From positions 2,732,484 through 2,796,483 of the forward strand of contig NZ_AP025523.1 of assembly GCF_027923555.1 (NCBI RefSeq): a DNA stretch of 64,000 nucleotides, read 5' to 3'. Under the pieces are notes generated by a model. It was given only the letters and a program-made list of their open reading frames with translations. It had not been told where the DNA came from and searched no databases. The stretch's first letter is position 1. Each line of letters starts with the position of its first letter. Source of the DNA: Vulcanimicrobium alpinum (GTDB taxonomy: Bacteria; Vulcanimicrobiota; Vulcanimicrobiia; Vulcanimicrobiales; Vulcanimicrobiaceae). Position numbers and translations under genes: made by a program. This document shows, one piece after another, positions 17,553 to 35,181 of the stretch.

Positions 17553-20500
17553 TTGTCGATCGCCGATTTCGCCGTTACCCGCCGCGTCACGGTCGCGATG
17601 CTCGCGACCGCGATCGTCGTGCTGGGAATCTTCGCGATCCCGCGGCTCCCGATCGCGCTGCTGCCGTCGTTTCAGCCGCCCGTCGTCTCGGTCACGGTCA
17701 ACTACGGCAACGTCTCGCCGGAGACGATGGAATCGACCGTCACGCGCCCGATCGAGAACGCGGTCAGCCGCGTCTCCGGGATCGACTACCTGCAGTCGAA
17801 TTCGTTCCAGGGCCAGACCGTCGTGCGCGCGACGTTCAAATACGGCACCAACATCAACGTCGCTGCGACCGACATCCAGCAACAAGTCGCGCGCGCCGCG
17901 ACGCAGCTCCCGAACGACACCAACCTGCAGCAGCCGCAGATTCAAAAAGCGGATCCTAACGCGCTCCCAGTCGTGCGCCTTTCGGTGACCGACAACAGCC
18001 GGCCGCTGCGCGACCTCTTCGATCTCTTCAACAACCAGCTCGCCGATGAGTTCGCGGGCGTCTCGGGCGTCGGTTCCGTCTCGGTGTTCGGCGGCGCGCA
18101 GCGCGCGATCATGGTCGAGCCCGACGTCAACGCGCTCGCCGGCTACGGCCTCGACACCAACGCCATCGTCACGAAGATCAAGAATGAGAACGTGGACGCG
18201 CCGGCCGGCTTGCTCGCGATCGGTCCCAAAGAGTTCACGATCCGCGCGAACGCGCTCTACAAGAACTCGGCCGAGGTCGCGAACACCGTCGTCACCGTGA
18301 AAAACGGCGCGCCGGTCTACGTGCGCGACGTCGCGCGCGTGATCGACGGCGTCGAAGAGATCCGCTCGTTCTCGCGGCTCGACGGGAATTCGTCGATCGC
18401 GCTCGGAATCACGGCGCAGCCGGACGCCAACGTCATCGCCGTCTCGCAGGGCGTCTACGCCAAGATCGCCGACTTCCAGAAGCGCTATCCGACGATGCAC
18501 TTCGGCGTCGTGTTCGACCAGCAGGGCTTCATCGATTCGGCCGTGGTCGCGCTGGAACACACCGCGGTCTACGGCGCGATTCTCGCGGTGCTGATCATCC
18601 TACTCTTCCTGCACTCGCTACGCTCGACGCTGATCGTCGCCGTCTCGCTCCCGACCTCGGTGCTGGGCACGTTCTTCGCAGCGTACACGCTGCACCAGTC
18701 GCTCAACATCATGACGCTGGGCGGACTCGCGCTCGCCGTGGGGCTGATCGTCGACGACGCCGTCGTCGTCATCGAGAATATCTACCGACACCTTGCGGAG
18801 GGCGAGCCGCCGCGCGAGGCCGCGCGCAATGCGACCGCGCAGATCTTCACGGCGGTGCTCGCTTCAACGGTCACCGTCATTACGGTATTCGTCCCGCTGC
18901 TGCTGATCCCGGGCTTGCAGGGGCTGATCTTCGGTCCGTTCGCGCTCGTGATCATCGTCGGCGTCGGGATCTCGCTGCTCGTCGCGACGACCACCGTGCC
19001 GATGCTCTCGAGTTTCATGCTCGACACGCATAGCGTCCACCTCACCGACGACGACGGCGATGGGGTCTCGCGCGGCGGCTTCGCCCGCGGCTTTGCGCGC
19101 CGCTACCAGCGTTTCGGCCGCGGGTTCGACCGCTTCTACCTCCGCCTCGAAACCGGGTACCGGCGCCTGCTCGGCGCGGCGGTCGACCGGCCCGCGATCG
19201 TGCTCGGCACGGGGCTGCTCCTCGTCGCGCTCTCGATCGTCGCGGTCAACTTCGGCGTCGTGAAAACCGAAGTGTTCCCCGCCTCCTCGTCGCGCTTCAT
19301 CCGCTTGAACTTGCGCACGCCGAACGGCACGTCGGTGGCAAGCACCAACGCCGTCGCGATCAAGGTCGAAGATGCGCTGCGCCGCGATCCGCGCGTCGTC
19401 AGCGTCGCCGACACCGTCGGCTCCGCGTTCGGCGGCGGCGGCTCGCGCGTGGTGACCAATCAGGCATCGATGGCGATCGCGCTGCGACCCGGCATCAGCG
19501 GCGCGAAGGCCGACGCGTTCGTCACCGAGTGGCAGCGCCGCCTGGGCGGAACGCCGCGTCGGGGCGGTGCGGCCAACGCCAACGTTCCGCAGACCATCAC
19601 GCCGGAGCAGCGCGCGCAGTTCCTCGATCTGCGCCGCGCGCTGGTCGGCACGCAGGTGTTCGCGAGCAGCATCGACATCGTGCAGCAAACGGTGAGCCAG
19701 GGCTCCGACGCGATCGAGATCCAGCTCTACGGGCCCGACATCAACCAGCTCTACAAGCTCGCGCAAGGCGCCATCCCGTCGATCGCGCAGATCCCCGGCA
19801 TCCAGCGCCCCGACACGAACATCACGCCGTCACAGCCGGAAGTCGACGTCAACGTCAATCGCCGCATGGCCGCGCAGCTCGGGCTCTCGACCGGCGACAT
19901 CGCCAACGTCATTTCGACGGCGACCAGCGGGACGATCGCGTCGTACTGGCAGACCAACGGCACGCAGTATCCAATTCTGGTCCAGCTTCCGCCTGACCAG
20001 CGGCGTTCGCTCGACGCGCTCAACTCACTGCAGATCCTGCCGAGCACGGCGACCCTCGCCGCATCGTCGGGCGGCGGCAGCGGCAGCGGTACGAGCACAA
20101 ATGCCGCGAGCGCGAACGGACCGTCGTCGCAATCGCTCGACGCGGTGCCGCTTAGCGGCGTCGCGCAGATCACGATCGGTCAGGGACCCTCGCAGATTCC
20201 GCGTCAGAACAAATCGCGGCGCGTCGACATCGACGCGCCGCTCGTCGGCGGCACGCTCGGCGACGTGCTCGCGCAGGTCACGAAGGTGATGGACGCCTAT
20301 CCGCTGCCGGCCGGGTATCGCTGGCAATACGGACCGTCGGTCACGCAGAACAACAACACGTTCGGCGCGCTGACGCTGGTCGTGATCCTCGCGATCGCGC
20401 TCATCTACATGCTGCTCGCGTCGCAGTTCGAATCGTTCCTTGACCCGCTCGTCATCATGGTCGCCGTGCCGTTCGCGCTGATCGGGATCGTCGGATCGCT

Positions 20501-20948
20501 GTGGATCACGCACCGTGCCTTCGGGCTGACGGCGTTCATCGGCTCGCTGATGCTGGTCGGGATCGCGGTGAAGAACGCGATTCTGGTGGTCGAGTTCACC
20601 AAGCAGCTCCGGCGCGACGAAGGGTATTCTGCGCGCGAAGCGCTGATGCACGCCGGCCCGATGCGTCTGCGGCCGATTCTGATGACGACGCTCGCAACGC
20701 TCGGCGGGATGCTGCCGATCGCGCTCGGGCTCGAGGCGGGGTCGGAGACGCAGGCCCCGCTCGGCACGGTCGTGATCGGCGGCTTGGTCACCTCGACGCT
20801 GCTGTCGCTGGTCGTCGTGCCGACCATCTATCTGCTGGTCGCCAAGCACATCGAGCCGCGTTTCGCGCCGAAGCCTCCGTCGTTCCGGCGCCCCACCCGC
20901 CCCGACGGAGCCCCCGCGAAACAGCCCCACCCCGCCGCCGCACCGTGA
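17553..20948 (+). CDS. HAE1-type RND efflux pump
   Basis: 1131 residues of an AcrB/MexB-type proton-driven exporter of hydrophobic compounds. The start is taken as the TTG at 17553, which begins MSIADFAVTRRVTVAMLAT, the usual first cytoplasmic stretch and helix 1. Periplasmic porter domains alternate with twelve membrane helices. The proton-relay Asp pair is in GLIVDDAVVVIENIYRHL (helix 4). It is longer than AcrB because of a Ser/Gly-rich insert near residues 830-855 in the second periplasmic loop. No adaptor or outer-membrane gene is adjacent, so it must borrow partners encoded elsewhere. A convergent TetR gene follows. Confidence 0.92.
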   Translation: MSIADFAVTRRVTVAMLATAIVVLGIFAIPRLPIALLPSFQPPVVSVTVNYGNVSPETMESTVTRPIENAVSRVSGIDYLQSNSFQGQTVVRATFKYGTNINVAATDIQQQVARAATQLPNDTNLQQPQIQKADPNALPVVRLSVTDNSRPLRDLFDLFNNQLADEFAGVSGVGSVSVFGGAQRAIMVEPDVNALAGYGLDTNAIVTKIKNENVDAPAGLLAIGPKEFTIRANALYKNSAEVANTVVTVKNGAPVYVRDVARVIDGVEEIRSFSRLDGNSSIALGITAQPDANVIAVSQGVYAKIADFQKRYPTMHFGVVFDQQGFIDSAVVALEHTAVYGAILAVLIILLFLHSLRSTLIVAVSLPTSVLGTFFAAYTLHQSLNIMTLGGLALAVGLIVDDAVVVIENIYRHLAEGEPPREAARNATAQIFTAVLASTVTVITVFVPLLLIPGLQGLIFGPFALVIIVGVGISLLVATTTVPMLSSFMLDTHSVHLTDDDGDGVSRGGFARGFARRYQRFGRGFDRFYLRLETGYRRLLGAAVDRPAIVLGTGLLLVALSIVAVNFGVVKTEVFPASSSRFIRLNLRTPNGTSVASTNAVAIKVEDALRRDPRVVSVADTVGSAFGGGGSRVVTNQASMAIALRPGISGAKADAFVTEWQRRLGGTPRRGGAANANVPQTITPEQRAQFLDLRRALVGTQVFASSIDIVQQTVSQGSDAIEIQLYGPDINQLYKLAQGAIPSIAQIPGIQRPDTNITPSQPEVDVNVNRRMAAQLGLSTGDIANVISTATSGTIASYWQTNGTQYPILVQLPPDQRRSLDALNSLQILPSTATLAASSGGGSGSGTSTNAASANGPSSQSLDAVPLSGVAQITIGQGPSQIPRQNKSRRVDIDAPLVGGTLGDVLAQVTKVMDAYPLPAGYRWQYGPSVTQNNNTFGALTLVVILAIALIYMLLASQFESFLDPLVIMVAVPFALIGIVGSLWITHRAFGLTAFIGSLMLVGIAVKNAILVVEFTKQLRRDEGYSAREALMHAGPMRLRPILMTTLATLGGMLPIALGLEAGSETQAPLGTVVIGGLVTSTLLSLVVVPTIYLLVAKHIEPRFAPKPPSFRRPTRPDGAPAKQPHPAAAP

Positions 20949-20954
20949 TTCGCC

Positions 20955-21563
20955 TCAGGCGTGTGATGCTCGAAGCGTTAGGGCAACGAGATCGGCGGCC
21001 TCGTCGGCTGTTGCAAGGAGGATCCGACGAGACTCGCCGGCTCGCGCTCGAACGGTGAGGCCGTGACGTAAGCTGTTGACGAGCCGGGCAACACGCGATG
21101 GCCGCACGTGTAACGGGACCTCCCCCTCGGCCATCGCGCGGGAGAGGCGGGCGCACAGCAGGCGATCCGTGATGGCGAGACACGCTTGCAACTTCTCACG
21201 CAACTCGGGCTCCTCGCCGGCGGCAGTCGCAAGAACCGAAGCGACGAGACAGCCCGGGGTCGTCGCCGATGTCGTGTTGAAAACGACCGCACGGAAAAAC
21301 CCGCGGATCGCGTCGGCGATACGGGGCTTTTGCAGCGCGGCAAACGGCGCCGCCCCGTTCGTCTCGAGATAATGATCGACGCACGAGAGAAACAGCTGAC
21401 GCTTGTCACCGAATGACGCATAGACGCTCGCTCTGTTCATGAGCATCGCTTTCGTCAATTCGTCCATCGAGGCGCCTAGATAACCGCGTTGCCAAAAGAG
21501 CAGCATCGCCGCATGCAGCGCCGCTTGGCGATCGTAGAGTTTGGGACGACCGCGGTTTGCCAT
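20955..21563 (-). CDS. TetR-family repressor
   Basis: 202 residues from the ATG at 21563 (MANRGRPKLYDRQAALHAAM). The N-terminal helix-turn-helix is GASMDELTKAMLMNRASVYA followed by SFGDKRQLF. The C-terminal ligand domain is typical of the AcrR-like group (TTPGCLVASVLATAAGEEPE). It is divergent from the SDR gene, with two palindromes between them, so it most likely represses that gene and itself. Confidence 0.88.
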   Translation of the reverse strand: MANRGRPKLYDRQAALHAAMLLFWQRGYLGASMDELTKAMLMNRASVYASFGDKRQLFLSCVDHYLETNGAAPFAALQKPRIADAIRGFFRAVVFNTTSATTPGCLVASVLATAAGEEPELREKLQACLAITDRLLCARLSRAMAEGEVPLHVRPSRVARLVNSLRHGLTVRARAGESRRILLATADEAADLVALTLRASHA

Positions 21564-21633
21564 TGATACGCATGCAATAGCATCACAAATTTTCACGCTC
21601 GTCAAGTTTTTATACCGCTTATTCCAAAATATT

Positions 21634-27338: not shown

Positions 27339-28730
27339 CTAGCCGCCGCTGGGGGCGAGCAGGTCGACGGCGCCGTGTGCAGCGAGGCGGTCGCCGATTT
27401 TTAGGCCGGACGTGACGAGCGTCGTGCCGCCGTCGGCGTCGCCGATCGTGATCTCGCGCGAGACGAACCCTTCGCCGTCTTTGGTGCGTGCGCGCACGAA
27501 GACGACGACGTTGCCGGTTTGCGGATCCTGAACGATCGCGTCGGTGGGGATCAGCACGCCGCGGTGTTCGCCGGCGTCGATCACGACTTCGACGGCGTCG
27601 CCGTTTGCCGCGCCGGGCGGAACGCCGGAGAGCACCACCGTACTGGTCTGCGTCGTCGGATCGACGCTCGGGACGACGGACCGGACCACCGCCTGCGCCT
27701 TCGCGCCGCCGCGCGCGGCGAGCGTCACCGCGGCGGCGGCGCCGGGATGGATCGCGCGCACAGCGTCGCCGCTGACCGTCACGGTGACGGCCTCCGACTG
27801 CGGCGGACCGACGACGATCGCGGGCTGGGTCGGGTCGACCGACTCGCCGGGATGCTTGAGAATCTGCGAAACCACGCCGTCGTTCGGCGCGCGCAGCGTC
27901 GCGTTCGTGAGGTTGCGCCGCGCCGCGGCCGCGCGCGCTTGGGCGGAACCCGCGGCGCCCGCGGTCACGCCGACCTGCGCCTGCGCGTTGCGCACGTCGG
28001 CTTCGGCCTGTGCGACGTCGGCGCGCGCCTGCGCGACCGCGCCGCCGACCGCATTCTGCGACGACGCGGCCTTCGATTGCGCGGAGACGACATCGGCTCG
28101 ATCGAGTTGCAGCTGCTGACGCGCCGCCTCGACGTCTTTCTGCGCCGCGACGCCGCCGGCGTACAGCGTCTGCTCGCGCTGCACGGTCCGCTCGTCGGCG
28201 GCGACCTTCGCCTGCGCCTGCATCAGCGCGGAACGCGCGCCGGTCGCATCGCTCTGCGCCGATGCCGTTCCCGATTGCAGCGCGGCGAGATGGTTGCGCG
28301 CGAGCACGAGGCGCCGCTGCGCGCTCGCCAGCGCGCGCTGCGGCACCGTCCCGCCGCCGTACGCGGCCGAGGCGGCCGCGGCATCGTTCGCCGCTGCCGA
28401 CGCGTCGAGCGCGAGTCCCGACGTGTCGAGTTCGGCGAGCGGCTGGCCCGCGGTCACTGCCTCGCCGACGTGCACGTCGATCCGCGCGACGATCCCCGAT
28501 CCGGCGAAGGCGAGCTTCGCGTCGCCGCCGGCGGGAAACCCCACCCGTCCCTGCGCGCGCACGTGCGACGTCAGCGTGCCGAACCGCGCGGTCGCGAGCG
28601 GGAGCGACGGTACCGACGACGCCTGCGCATCCGTCGCCGTGGTCGTCTTGCGCACGTTCAGCAGCGCGATCGCGATGACGACGGCGACGACCGCCAGCGC
28701 GGCCGCGACCGCGGAAGTGCGGCGGTTCAA
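27339..28730 (-). CDS. RND periplasmic adaptor (membrane fusion protein)
   Basis: 463 residues. One N-terminal membrane anchor (AAALAVVAVVIAIALLN), a lipoyl half-motif (GSGIVARIDVHVGEAVTAGQ, then PLAELDTSG), a long Ala-rich coiled-coil hairpin (residues about 110-285), the second lipoyl half (LRAPNDGVVSQILKHPGESV) and beta-barrel/membrane-proximal domains ending DRLAAHGAVDLLAPSGG. It would couple the RND pump to the TolC domain. Its ATG overlaps the stop of the pump-TolC gene (ATGA), so it is the last gene of the unit. Confidence 0.9.
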   Translation of the reverse strand: MNRRTSAVAAALAVVAVVIAIALLNVRKTTTATDAQASSVPSLPLATARFGTLTSHVRAQGRVGFPAGGDAKLAFAGSGIVARIDVHVGEAVTAGQPLAELDTSGLALDASAAANDAAAASAAYGGGTVPQRALASAQRRLVLARNHLAALQSGTASAQSDATGARSALMQAQAKVAADERTVQREQTLYAGGVAAQKDVEAARQQLQLDRADVVSAQSKAASSQNAVGGAVAQARADVAQAEADVRNAQAQVGVTAGAAGSAQARAAAARRNLTNATLRAPNDGVVSQILKHPGESVDPTQPAIVVGPPQSEAVTVTVSGDAVRAIHPGAAAAVTLAARGGAKAQAVVRSVVPSVDPTTQTSTVVLSGVPPGAANGDAVEVVIDAGEHRGVLIPTDAIVQDPQTGNVVVFVRARTKDGEGFVSREITIGDADGGTTLVTSGLKIGDRLAAHGAVDLLAPSGG

Positions 28731-31700
28731 TCCGAGACCTCCAAGTCGAGCGTCGCCTGAGACTGCAGGCGATCGTACAAGGCGGCGAGCGCGTCGACGG
28801 CGGCCTGCGCGTACGCGGCGCGCGCCGACGAGAAATCGAGGCTCGTCGAGGCACCGCTGCGATACCCGAGGGTCGCGGCGTCGAGTTCGGCGCGCGCCGA
28901 CTGCAACGCAGCCTCGCTCGCGTTCTGTGCTTCGACGGCGGCGGCGGCGTTGCGTGCGGCGGCGCCGACGTCGACAGCGATCTGCCGCGCGACCGAGTCG
29001 CGCTTCGCCTCGGCGGTAGTGAGAATCGCCTGTTGGGCGCGCACCTTGGCGCCGAGCGCACCGCCGAGCGGGAGGGTCATCTGGGCGTTGAGGGTGGGGC
29101 CGGCGATGGTGAAACCGGAATCGACGCCGCGCGCGTAGCCGCCGCTCACCGTGACCGGCGGGATCACCGCACGCTGCGCGGCCGAGACACCTGCGCGAGC
29201 GGCACGTACGTTCTCGTCGGCCGAGCGGATGTCGCCGCGCGTCGCGAGCGCGCGCGAAACCGCTTTGGCGGGATCGAGAAGGTCGGTTCGCGCTACGGTC
29301 CCGATCGCCGGTGCGCCGAGCGTTCCGGGCGCGAGGGAGAGTTCGCGTTCGAGCGCGTCGGCGGCGTTCGCGTCGTCGGCTTTCGCGCGCGCCAGATCCG
29401 CCTGCGCGCGGGCGAGCGCGACGTCCGCGCGGACGGTGTCGATGCGCGGTGCGTCGCCCGCCTTGAAACGGAGCTGTGCCGCCCGCGAGAACGCTTGCGC
29501 GCTCGCCACCGCGTCGGCGCGCGCCTGCGCGACCGAACGCGCCTTGAGCGCCGCGTAGTACAGCCCGATCGTTTTGATTCGTTCGGTGCGCTCGGCGCCG
29601 CGCGCGTCGATCTGCGCCGCGCGCAGCGACGCGTTCGCCTGCGCGACCGCCGGCGCGTACGCGAGGACGTCGCCGAGGGTCACCTGCGCGCCGACGGTCG
29701 TGATGCGTTGCGCGAGGGTCCCTTCGGCCGCGCCCTGCGGGGCTTCGGCGTACGTCGCGGTTGCGGCGATCCCGTACGTCCCGCGCGCCTGATCGTACGC
29801 CGCCTTCGCGGCCGCCACGTTCGCGCGCGCCGTGCGCACGTCGGGCGAGTTCGCGAGCGCGCGCGTCTGCGCGTCGGCGAGCGGCACGGTCGCGAACGCC
29901 GTCGCACGCGGGTTAACGGTCGGCGGACTCGGAATCGGCACCGTGCTCGCGACCGGCGCCGCGGACGCCGGCTGGGCCGTCGCGTCGCGCGCGCCGAGCG
30001 CGACGAACGCGATCGCGAGCACGCTCGTCGCGATCGCCTGCGCGGGGACGCGCACGCGACGCGATCCGGTGAATGCGGCGTAGAGCACCGGGATCAGGAT
30101 CAGCGTGAACGCCGTTGCGGTCGAGAGGCCGCCGATGACGGCGATCGCGAGCGGCTTCTCCATCTCGGAGCCGGAGCCCAGACCGAACGCGAGCGGGAGC
30201 AGGCCGCCGATCGCGGCGAGGGTCGTCATCAGAATCGGCCGCAGGCGCGTCGAACCGGCGATCACGAGCGCCTGCACCACGTCGGCCCCCGTCTGCACCT
30301 GTTTGTTCGCAACGTCGATCAGCAGGATACCGTTCTTGACGACGATCCCGACGAGCAGCAACAGTCCCATGAACGACGAGACGTTGACCGGCGTGCGGGT
30401 GAGCACCAGCGCGATCGCGACGCCGATCAGCGCGAGCGGGATCGCCGCGAGAATGACCAGCGGCAAGCGCAGCGAGCCGAACGTCGCGAGCATCACCGAG
30501 AACACCAGCGCGATCGCGATTGCGATGACGCTCGCGAACTCGCGAAACGATGCCTGCTGCGTCTCGTACGAGCCGCCGATCGTCGCCGTGTAGCCCGGCG
30601 GGAGGCCGAGCTTCGCGATCACCGGCCGCACGCCGGCGATCACCGATGAGAGGCTCGCGCCCTCGATGTTCGCGCTCACGCGCACCACCCGGCGGCCGTT
30701 CTCTTCGTTGATGTCGGTGGTGTAGCCGCCGTTCTTTACGCTCGCGAACGTACTCACCGGCGTCGCGCCGCTCTTCGTCATCAGCACGCCGCTCGCCGGC
30801 CCGGCCGCGCCGCCCCCGGCGCCTGCGACCAGCACGCGGACGGGAATCTCGGCGTACGTTCCGGCGATCTGCGCTGCGACCGAACCCTGCGCGTTTGCGT
30901 CGAGCGCGCTCGAGAGATCGCTGCGCGCGATCCCGAGCGCCGCCAGCCGCGACGCCTGCGGCACGATGCGCAGGGTCGGGTCGTCATAGACGATCCCGTT
31001 GTAGGGATCGACAACGCCCTTTACCTTCCCGATCGCGTCGGCGAGCCGCGTCGCGTAGGCGTTGAGCGTCGCTTGATCGGGTCCGCTCAGCACTACCTCG
31101 ATCGGTTGGGGCGCACCGGAGAGATCGTTGATCTGATCTTCGAGCAGCTGATGGAAGTCGAGTGTCGCCGAGGGCACCGCGGCGGCGATCTGGTCGCGCA
31201 GCCGCGCGCTGATTTCCTCGTAGCCAGCGTCGCGTTTGTCGCGCAGCGAGACGCGAATCGTGCCGATGTTCGTCTGCGTCGGCGAGTAGCCGTTGGTGTC
31301 GACGCCGGTAAGCCGCCCGACGTGCGCGACGGCCGGATCGCCGACGACGACTCGTTCCATCCGCTGCACCGCCGCATCGGTCGAATCGAGCGACGTTCCC
31401 GTCGGCATCGTGTACTTGATCTCGAACTGCCCCTCATCGAGTTTGGGCAGGAAGTCGCTCTGCGACGTCCCGAGCAGCAGGACCGTCACGATCAGCACCG
31501 CGGCCGAACCCGCGTAGATGATCGGCCGGTGCGAGAGCGCCCAACGCAGCATCGACACGTAGCGCCGCTCCAGCCGGTCGTCGGCCTTCGCGACGTGACG
31601 CGACGTGCCGAGAAACCACCGCGCCAAAATCGGCGTCACCAGCAAGGCCAGTGTGAGCGAGATGATCAGCGACGCCGCGAGCGTGAACGCGAGCGCACGA

Positions 31701-33090
31701 AAGAAGAATCCCGTGACGCCGGTAAGCAGTCCCAGCGGCAAGAAGACGACCACCGTCGTCGCGGTGGATGCGATCATCGCCTTCGCGATCCCGCTGCTCG
31801 CGCGCGAGACCGACTCGTCGAGCGTTTCGTCCTTCGCATCGCCGATGCGGCGCGCGATCGCTTCGATCACGACGATGGCGTCGTCGATGATGAGCCCGAC
31901 GGCGACGGCCAAGCCGCCGACGCTCATCAGGTTGAGCGTCTGTCCAGAGCGCTCCAGCGCAAAGATCGCGATCGCCATCGCGAGCGGGATCACCGCCGCC
32001 GCGACGAGCGTCATCCGCAGGCTGCGCAGGAACGCGTAGATCACCAGCACCGCGAGCAGCGCGCCGAGCAGGATCGCGTCGCGCAGCGACGTCTGCGACG
32101 CAACGATCAGCCGCGTCTGGTCCCAGTACTTCACCAGGTGCACGTCGGCGGGAATACGCGGCGCGATCGCGTCGAAGCGGCCGTCGACCTCACGTGCGAG
32201 CGTGACGGCGTCAGCCCCGGCCAGCGCGAACGCGTTGACGTTCACCGCGTGCCGTCCGTCGACGGCTGCCTGATCGGTCGAAGGGCCGGTGGTGAGCCGC
32301 ACGCTGCCGAGCGCACCGACCGGCAGCGTCCCGCCGTTCTTCAGCGGAACGCCGATCGCGGGAGCGACACCGCATCGTGCGGCGCCGCGTCGACGAGCAG
32401 CACGTACCGCTGGTGGAACCGTTCCGTAGTGCCGACCGACTCGACGTTCGCCGCATCGCCGATCGCCGTCGCGACCTCGCCCGCGCTCACGCCGGTCGCG
32501 GCAAGTTTCCCGGCGTCGAGTTCGACGTGGTACTCCACCGGCGAGCCGCCGACCGCGATGATCCGTCCGAGCCCCGGCGTTCCGGCGAACGACGGGATGA
32601 TGCGCGTGTCTACGAACTGTTTGAGCGCCGTCTGCGAGAGCACGGTCGAGGTGAGCCCGTACGAGACCACCGGCTCCGCGTTGGGGTTCACGATCACGCC
32701 GTCAATCGTCTTCGCCGCCGCGATCGTGCCGCGCACCGACGCCATCGCCTGGTTCACGGCTTCGAGATCGACCCGCGGATCGGTGTGCGGATCGAAATCG
32801 ATCAGCAGTTCCGCCGAGCCTTGCGTCGACGTTGCGCGCACACGCTGGACCGAGGGCAGCGTCTGGAACGCCGTCTCGAGCGGGCGCGTCACCGCGATGC
32901 GCACGCGATCCGGCGGCAGATCGCCGGCGTCGGCGACGACGTCGACGCGCGAGAACGACATCTGCGGGAAGATGCTCTCGGGCGCGATCAGGTACGAGTA
33001 GACCCCGAGCGCGGCCAGGACGAGGGCGACGAAGACGGTGACCTTCGCGTTGCGCAGCGCGAAGGAAGGGAGCGATCGCGTCGAGGGCAC
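28727..33090 (-). pseudogene. RND pump fused to a TolC-like domain, one frameshift
   Basis: The N-terminal part (GTG 33090 to about 32360) reads FALRNAKVTVFVALVLAALG and porter sequence to VDAAPHDAVSLP, then runs out of frame. The next frame continues AIGVPLKNGGTLPVGALGS without loss, so one base is missing near 32361. The rest is an RND pump with GGLAVAVGLIIDDAIVVIEA (proton-relay Asp pair) up to the last helix (TLILIPVLYAAF, about 30070). A signal-like helix (AIATSVLAIAFVALGARDAT) and then a TolC-type domain follow: LADAQTRALANSPDVRTARA and LRFKAGDAPRIDTVRADVAL. Repaired length is about 1454 residues. It may be a real mutation or a sequence error. Kinase and regulator genes lie directly upstream. 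Confidence 0.8.
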
Positions 33091-33115
33091 TGTCCCCGAG
33101 CGTACCCAGCGAAGA

Positions 33116-34510
33116 TTACGGCCGCATGAACGAGGGCAGTTCAACCACGACGAGCGCGCCGCCGGTCGCCCGGTTCGCGAGGCGGAGGGTACCGTGCATC
33201 GTCGCGACGATCACCGCCGCGATCGCCAGCCCGAGGCCGCTCCCGCCTCCGTCGTCACCGCGCGGACGTGCGGCGTCGTCGCGCCAGAAGCGCTCGGTTG
33301 CGTGCGCGAGCGCGGCCTCGCTAAATCCCGGCCCGTCGTCGGCGACCTCGACGCGCACGATGGTGTCGCCGCGGTGGACCGCAATCTCGACCCGGCCGTC
33401 GGCCCGAGCGTATTTCAAGGCGTTGTGCAGCACGCACGTGACCGCGCGCCGCACCGCGGGCTCGTGCCCGCACGCCATCGCACCCGGCTCGATCGATTGC
33501 GCGATCGCGACGTTGCGCGCGCGCGCGAGCGCGCGCATCCGCTCCGCGGCCTTCGCGGCGGCTCCGCCGACGTCGACCGGCTCCGACACCGCCGACTCCA
33601 CCGCCTCACCGCGCGCCGCGGCGAGCAGATCGCGGGTGAGCTCTTCGAGATCGTCGGCCTGCTGGGCGATCGAGCGCAGCGCGCGTTCGTACTCGTCGGG
33701 CGTGCGCATGCGGCGCAGCATCAGATCGGCCTCGGCGCGGATCACCGAAAGCGGGGCGCGCAGTTCGTGCGACGCGTCGCTGGTAAAACGGCGCTCGCGA
33801 TCGAACGCGTTCTCGAGACGATCCAGCATGCGGTCGAACGTGAGGCACAACCGTCCGAGTTCGTCATCGCGAACCGGGACCGCGATGCGCCGCGAGAGAT
33901 CGTGCGCTTCGATCTCCGAGGCGATCTCCGCCAGATGCACGAGCGGCCGCAGCCCGCGCGCGGCGACGAAGCCGCCGCCGATCGCGGCGAACGCGGCGAC
34001 GACCGGGATCGCCAGCGCAAACGCGAACGCGAGCCGGCGATCGAGGTCTTCGATGCCCTCGAAGTCGCCCCACACGAGCACGGTCCCCAGCGGCGTCTTG
34101 CCGACGGGGAGGGCCGCCGCCGAGACGCGCAGCGCGCCTTCCGGCGTGCGCACGGTCTGCGTTCCGCTGATCCCGGTCGCCGCGAGCGAGCGCACCATGT
34201 CGGGAAGGTCGACGACCGTGCTCGCGATCGCGCCGCGCTTGCGGCCGAAGACGGCGGCGTTGATCCCGCGCCCGACGATGCGGGCGAACTGCGTGCGGTC
34301 GTGCGGATCGAGCGCGATCGTGCCGTCGTGCTGATCGACGATCGCCGAGACCGCGCGAGTCGCAAGCTGCAGGCGGTCGTCGAGCGTGCTGCGCTGGATG
34401 CGGTCGACGAGCGCGAGCGTGCCCGCGGCCAAGACGATGAGCGCAACCAGCAGCGCGACGGCATAGGCGAGCGCGAGCTGACCGCGCAGGGTGCGCGGAT
34501 CGATCGTCAC
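33116..34510 (-). CDS. Sensor histidine kinase
   Basis: 464 residues from the GTG at 34510, which overlaps the regulator stop (GTGA). Two membrane helices (about 9-31 and 165-190) enclose a short periplasmic sensor. HAMP follows (RGLRPLVHLAEIASEIEAHD), then the phospho-acceptor His in RFTSDASHELRAPLSVIRAE and the ATPase motifs VLHNALKYARADG (N box), VADDGPGFSEAAL (G1) and GGGSGLGLAIAAVI (G2). It would phosphorylate the adjacent response regulator. The pump gene begins 25 bases after its stop. Confidence 0.93.
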   Translation of the reverse strand: MTIDPRTLRGQLALAYAVALLVALIVLAAGTLALVDRIQRSTLDDRLQLATRAVSAIVDQHDGTIALDPHDRTQFARIVGRGINAAVFGRKRGAIASTVVDLPDMVRSLAATGISGTQTVRTPEGALRVSAAALPVGKTPLGTVLVWGDFEGIEDLDRRLAFAFALAIPVVAAFAAIGGGFVAARGLRPLVHLAEIASEIEAHDLSRRIAVPVRDDELGRLCLTFDRMLDRLENAFDRERRFTSDASHELRAPLSVIRAEADLMLRRMRTPDEYERALRSIAQQADDLEELTRDLLAAARGEAVESAVSEPVDVGGAAAKAAERMRALARARNVAIAQSIEPGAMACGHEPAVRRAVTCVLHNALKYARADGRVEIAVHRGDTIVRVEVADDGPGFSEAALAHATERFWRDDAARPRGDDGGGSGLGLAIAAVIVATMHGTLRLANRATGGALVVVELPSFMRP

Positions 34511-35181
34511 GGCGCGGTGCCGAACCGGTAGCCGGCGCCGCGGACGGTGTGGATCAGCTGCGGTTCGTCTTCCGGGCTCAACTTGCGCCGTAAGCGGCGG
34601 ATGTAGACTTCGATGACGTTCGACTCCGTCTCGCGGTCGCGTTCCCACAGCGCGTCCTCGAGCATCGGCCGCGTCACGACGCGGCCGGCGTTGCGCATCA
34701 AATACTCGAGAAAGGCGGTCTCGCGCGCCGAGAGCGCGATGCGTCGTCCGCCGCGCGCGACGATCCGCGTGCGCAGATCCATCACGACGTCGTCGACCTG
34801 CAGGGCGTCGCGCGCCGGGACCGGATCGCGGCGCGTGATCGAGCGCAGCCGTGCTTCGAGCTCGTCGAAGACGAACGGCTTGCGCAGGTAGTCGTCGGCG
34901 CCTGCGTCGAGCCCGGTGACGATTTCGTCGACGGTGTCACGCGCGGTGAGCATCAGGATCGGCGTGTGGATGCCGCCGTCGCGCAGAGCGCGCGCCACCG
35001 CGAGCCCGTCCTTGCCGGGAAGCATCACGTCGAGCAGGATCGCGTCGTAGGTGCCGTCGAGGGCGACGCGCTCGCCGGCGCTGCCGTCGCGCTCAACGTC
35101 GACGACGTGGCCGGACTCGGCCAGCCCGCGGCGCAGGACGTCGGCCAGCGACGGATCATCTTCGATGACGAGCAGCTTCAC
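34507..35181 (-). CDS. OmpR/PhoB-family response regulator
   Basis: 224 residues. The receiver has the acidic pair Glu7/Asp8 and phosphorylation site Asp51 (YDAILLDVMLPGKDG), then Thr and Lys positions (LMLTARDTVDEI, DYLRKPFVFDELEAR). The C-terminal winged helix has ALSARETAFLEYLMRNAGRV and SNVIEVYIRRLRRKLSP. It would control transcription of the RND pump operon downstream. It starts 31 bases after relA on the same strand. Confidence 0.94.
   Translation of the reverse strand: MKLLVIEDDPSLADVLRRGLAESGHVVDVERDGSAGERVALDGTYDAILLDVMLPGKDGLAVARALRDGGIHTPILMLTARDTVDEIVTGLDAGADDYLRKPFVFDELEARLRSITRRDPVPARDALQVDDVVMDLRTRIVARGGRRIALSARETAFLEYLMRNAGRVVTRPMLEDALWERDRETESNVIEVYIRRLRRKLSPEDEPQLIHTVRGAGYRFGTAP

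Follow-up and report, generated by a model that had tools for sequence, protein, structure and literature searches.

In Vulcanimicrobium alpinum, an RND permease and a complete TolC-type channel are fused in a minus-strand gene (33144-28727 of the window, by which we mean the whole analysed stretch of 64,000 nucleotides), and from sequences and structural models we consider it quite probable that the product of such a gene is a polyprotein that would be cut by signal peptidase I into permease and channel. The fusion type as such is known; what we describe here is an HAE-type RND-TolC version, made probably as a precursor that is cut at an internal signal peptide. The main idea of the preliminary description of this locus was right and is more general than had been thought.

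The host genome is complete and consists of a single contig of 3.5 Mb. On the minus strand the gene order is response regulator, histidine kinase, fused permease-channel and adaptor, and each gene overlaps the next. The features are as follows:

34507..35181, minus strand: OmpR-type response regulator (Response_reg and Trans_reg_C), first gene of the apparent operon
33116..34648, minus strand: sensor histidine kinase (HAMP, HisKA, HATPase_c), located upstream and extending over the fused gene's start
32344..33144, minus strand: N-terminal part of the RND permease (TM1 and first periplasmic half) in frame A; open reading frame, PF00873 profile positions 3-225, E 2e-29
32345..32359, minus strand: one-base deletion relative to G006, G002 and G129, from DNA and protein comparison
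30065..32302, minus strand: remainder of the RND permease up to the end of TM12 (PVLYAAFTG) in frame B; PF00873 E 5e-153, AcrB-type fold with Z about 53, motifs
29975..30064, minus strand: internal signal-peptide-like segment SRRVRVPAQ-AIATSVLAIAFVALGA-RDATA, from the sequence, a low-confidence helix (754-770) and the conserved A/Q type (the slash marks the predicted cut)
29888..29974, minus strand: variable unstructured linker of about 29 residues, from low pLDDT and the 1ek9 alignment
28727..29887, minus strand: complete TolC/OprM-type channel domain (H1-H8); PF02321, 1ek9 Z 25.1, rmsd 8.1, 345 aligned
27339..28730, minus strand: periplasmic adaptor (membrane fusion protein) of the pump; TIGR01730 122.9 bits, cut-off 94.9

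The TTG start of the adaptor gene overlaps the TGA stop of the fused gene (TTGA) and is preceded by GGAGGT, so that both genes are translationally coupled. The adjoining two-component system suggests that expression of the pump genes is induced. A further RND permease gene in the window, encoding 1131 aa (17553-20948, plus strand), is not fused; it is followed on the opposite strand by a TetR-like open reading frame (20955-21605). Elsewhere in the same genome, a second TolC-like extension at 1873125-1875824 was rejected as a fusion because the RND frame there stops after 1102 codons without reaching a channel; the figure of 1430 codons at this position belongs to another frame.

The preliminary description had placed permease and channel in one polypeptide. 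This holds for the junction, which is continuous, and for the relatives, whose frames are unbroken, but not for the permease part of the window copy, which is interrupted near 32350. Residues 1-267 (33144-32341) end in a stop codon (32343-32341), and the remainder of the RND half continues in a different frame, the shift falling between the codons for DAVSL and IGVPLKNGG. G006, G002 and G129 align across this site with one base more, which identifies the window copy as carrying a one-base deletion, and four relatives, among them G110, are open through the site as single frames of 1444-1540 aa. Judged from this alignment, the deletion would be either a sequencing error or a real mutation. The statement on a polyprotein therefore concerns the family, and the copy in the window would work only if the frameshift is an assembly error.

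From its first listed start, the open frame 28727-32302 encodes 1191 aa and runs from the C-terminal part of the RND protein into the outer-membrane efflux domain, PF00873 covering residues 11-744 (E 5e-153). In the window, the PF00873 match is split by the frameshift into two pieces of 102 and 512 bits (cut-off 28), and the relatives show one piece of 624-677 bits, which places the protein among the RND permeases. The predicted permease fold is AcrB-like (best chain 3noc_A, Z 53.9). HAE-type proteins are recognized by two adjacent Asp residues in TM4 and a Lys in TM10 (D407/D408/K940 in AcrB), and we found IDDA in TM4 of all five fused Eremiobacterota genes that include this helix and VVKN in TM10 of six out of six. 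By these proton-relay motifs, the fused permease of Eremiobacterota is assigned to the HAE type. It does not belong to the HME type (CusA/CzcA), as TIGR00914 (curated cut-off 701.45 bits) gives 409 bits for L055 and 438 bits for L056, both full-length relatives.

That a complete TolC-type domain follows the RND part is borne out by both profile and model, by which the channel half is classed as a TolC-type outer-membrane factor. PF02321 matches it with E 1e-32 and 113.7 bits (cut-off 22), and the half modelled alone adopts a TolC-like fold over its full length. TolC, OprM and CusC chains match this model at Z 22-26, and the next unrelated chain follows at Z 7.9; two beta-hairpin regions were modelled at low confidence. 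Counted from the predicted cut, residue 30 of the model is the counterpart of residue 1 of mature TolC (1ek9), so that the mature N-terminus predicted here precedes that point by 29 residues. The channel half ends with the stop codon at 28729-28727. Among the 60 matches listed, no solved structure covers both halves, and the best stretches end in the RND part.

Between the two domains lies AIATSVLAIAFVALGARDATAQ (30037-29972, minus strand), without a stop codon and in a continuous frame common to six genomes. After TM12 (PVLYAAFTG), all six fused junctions show an Arg-rich stretch, then a core of roughly twelve hydrophobic residues, and A-x-A/Q or an equivalent (ATAQ, ARAQ, VQAQ, TRAQ, ASAQ and ARAQ), the cut by signal peptidase I being predicted after ATA and before Q in the window. 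Judged by pattern, i.e. a positive segment and a short hydrophobic core followed by small amino acids at -3 and -1, the six Eremiobacterota junctions are all of the Sec signal peptide type processed by signal peptidase I. The signal-like helix with its A-T-A/Q site, pointed out before in this gene, is thus conserved in type in every fused Eremiobacterota gene, and hardly in letters: the identity between the window copy and G006 is 41% in the tail-helix segment, 77% in the RND part and 68% in the channel, and both halves are under codon constraint, with second positions most conserved and third positions least. Low identity of the tail and helix beside constrained halves is the behaviour of a signal peptide with a linker and unlike that of a structural helix. 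Structure prediction, proposed earlier as a check of the junction, gives a short helix of low confidence (residues 754-770 of the 1191-aa model, 17 residues) followed by a disordered linker. The motif small-x-A/Q occurs at 33 of 36 junctions versus 5 of 373 other helices of the same proteins (Fisher's test: 2e-34 for Bacteroidota, 7e-7 for Eremiobacterota, values that are overstated since related sequences were counted as independent). The loose -3/-1 rule was discarded as evidence, being satisfied by 35 of 36 junctions and by 321 of 373 ordinary helix ends and hence uninformative.

A processing site special to this group, as had been supposed, is contradicted by the CusA/CzcA-TolC fusions of Bacteroidota, which have the same internal signal peptide. 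A search of 198 Bacteroidota genomes with the fusion L060 as query yielded 83 matches spanning both parts in 67 genomes, with frames of about 1440-1500 aa, and A/Q directly follows the helix in 29 of the 30 junctions read. The one exception, L102, has SAEAC in place of A/Q, possibly a lipoprotein-type or an altered site. Three finished plasmids (Runella slithyformis, Spirosoma linguale and Flavobacterium sp.) each carry a single CDS of 1447-1481 codons with the same A/Q junction and an adaptor gene next to it. The Bacteroidota fusions are annotated as 'CusA/CzcA family heavy metal efflux RND transporter' (e.g. WP_013931245.1 and ADB42711.1); the records of L119, L120 and L121, located on Bacteroidota plasmids, name the permease only and leave the channel half unnamed. 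Both groups share the RND part, the in-frame TolC-type domain, the signal-peptide-like helix with A/Q and the neighbouring adaptor. In contrast to the HAE-type DD/K motifs in Eremiobacterota, the Bacteroidota proteins have just one Asp in TM4 and belong to the HME class, L060 and L119 scoring 1208 and 1223 bits with TIGR00914, above the cut-off. Their linkers, measured from the cut site to the first channel helix, comprise 5-9 residues versus 12-31 in Eremiobacterota, where they were counted by hand because the automatic motif misplaced some. The Eremiobacterota genes do not belong to the Bacteroidota fusion family, since the class differs and they fall among unfused Eremiobacterota genes at two or more positions of the tree; by sequence, the two groups were fused independently. 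No fusion spanning both parts was found among the matches listed in 99 Acidobacteriota genomes.

The survey of homologues that had been called for confirmed the fusion of an RND permease with a TolC-like channel as a continuous frame shared by six of 149 genomes of the host's phylum, Eremiobacterota, i.e. G000 (the window), G006, G002, G003 (at a contig edge), G129 and G110, in addition to the Bacteroidota. In a tree built from the permease end and the channel, five fused genes form one clade (100/100) and G110 stands beside an unfused gene (96/86). A single clade for all six was rejected by the AU test (p 1.4e-5), which rules out a single origin and implies two fusion events in Eremiobacterota, the second of which would rest on one assembly, the single draft genome G110 with 8% contamination. 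About 27 other Eremiobacterota genomes, one of them (G010) of the same genus, carry permease and channel genes side by side, and in 26 of 27 such pairs there is a 4-base overlap between channel start and permease stop, with the channel in the -1 frame, so that one indel is enough to fuse the pair. As these pairs are already coupled, the fixed ratio of both components that had been suggested as the benefit of the fusion carries little weight. A Shine-Dalgarno core precedes the channel start in 17 of the 27 pairs, which fits ordinary reinitiation; programmed frameshifting at the overlap was dismissed, no conserved slippery site being seen by eye among the 27 pairs. In about 20 of the 27 pairs (L007-L038, e.g. 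L020 and L030), the channel starts only 10-18 residues before its first helix, with a hydrophobic stretch and little positive charge, for which mis-assigned starts are a possible reason. Many separate channels of Eremiobacterota have short or poor signal peptides, a point against the cleavage reading in that the quality of the signal may be less important than supposed.

The coupling of the separate relatives by a 4-base overlap and a GTG just before the helix in the window would fit a channel made separately by reinitiation at an internal start, with the read-through product as a by-product, and a fused frame might likewise be an assembly error. However, channel start and Shine-Dalgarno core, present in the separate genes, are mostly lost in the fused ones: no internal start keeps the charged segment in G006, G002, G129 and G110, which in the case of G110 also makes a simple reading error less likely, and none of the internal starts of the fused genes has a Shine-Dalgarno core in front of it. 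The clade of five fused genes and the single CDS on finished Bacteroidota plasmids also argue against this reading. A missed stop or misassembly at the junction was rejected on these grounds together with the six genomes, and the concern that homologues might be separate genes with a stop overlooked here does not apply; we regard separate synthesis or misassembly as very unlikely. Equally to be weighed is a channel half that became a non-functional relic after stop loss, the pump being served by another TolC. The own genome has a weak outer-membrane factor match at 1046601-1047830 and may encode other channels, and the window copy is frameshifted, but codon positions 1, 2 and 3 of the channel half are identical at 76, 83 and 53%, respectively, a sign of constraint, and the complete TolC fold, the repeated origin and the wide spread also oppose decay, which we hold to be highly improbable.

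It is further conceivable that the fusion stays whole, with the junction helix as a thirteenth transmembrane anchor tethering the channel to the permease at 1:1. The continuous frame in both phyla is compatible with this, and a 3:3 complex is numerically possible with RND and outer-membrane factor both being trimers. However, the junction helix is short and not conserved in sequence, the conservation of A/Q would be left without a reason, and the linkers of either group are too short to bring the channel N-terminus up from the inner membrane. In E. coli-type pumps, the N-terminal region of the channel lies at the equatorial level. The channel N-terminus would have to stand about 120 A or more away from the inner membrane (40 + 30 + half of 100 A), given 40 A for the porter and 30 A for the funnel of AcrB and 100 A for the periplasmic part of TolC (PMC8277102). 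With 3.6 A per residue, linkers of 5-31 residues span no more than about 110 A, which is less than the needed height, so that a fusion left uncut could not build a standard pump, an argument taken from E. coli that a much narrower periplasm or another architecture would weaken. All in all, we find an uncut product unlikely.

In the favoured reading, a polyprotein cleaved at its internal signal peptide, the RND half would insert with 12 transmembrane helices and end in the cytoplasm. The Arg-rich tail and the short hydrophobic segment after TM12 would then serve as an internal Sec signal peptide crossing outwards, and signal peptidase I would cut after A-x-A and before Q. The freed channel would pass through the periplasm to the outer membrane, where the BAM machinery would assemble it, and would join the permease and the adaptor encoded next in a tripartite pump of the ordinary kind. 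Cleavage, channel release and pump assembly are steps that we infer. Among the genes of the host are an Omp85 and two signal peptidase I genes (PF10502), the latter adjacent to each other (C1:596110-597251). AcrAB-TolC, MexAB-OprM and AdeB (HAE-1) have the same permease fold, channel fold and adaptor as the system described here, but their permease and channel are separate proteins from separate genes. A precedent for the proposed processing is FbcH of Bradyrhizobium japonicum, a cytochrome b/c1 precursor in which an internal signal peptide is cut to give two products. As in our proposal, a multi-helix membrane protein is fused to an exported protein; FbcH belongs to a respiratory complex and not to an efflux pump, and a relation in sequence is not claimed. 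A search limited to open-licence papers found no description of the processing of RND-TolC fusions.

With halves destined for the inner and outer membranes, a single chain poses a question of sorting, namely how an outer-membrane protein exits from a multi-helix precursor, and the answer proposed here is an internal signal peptide that would be cleaved. We consider it likely that RND-TolC fusions constitute a general class of polyproteins with at least three origins (two among HAE-type genes of Eremiobacterota and at least one among HME-type genes of Bacteroidota), in which the channel's own signal peptide has turned internal and signal peptidase I would free the channel. Such genes are common in Bacteroidota, as the sampled genomes demonstrate, and, if this holds true, annotation overlooks an outer-membrane channel in each of them.
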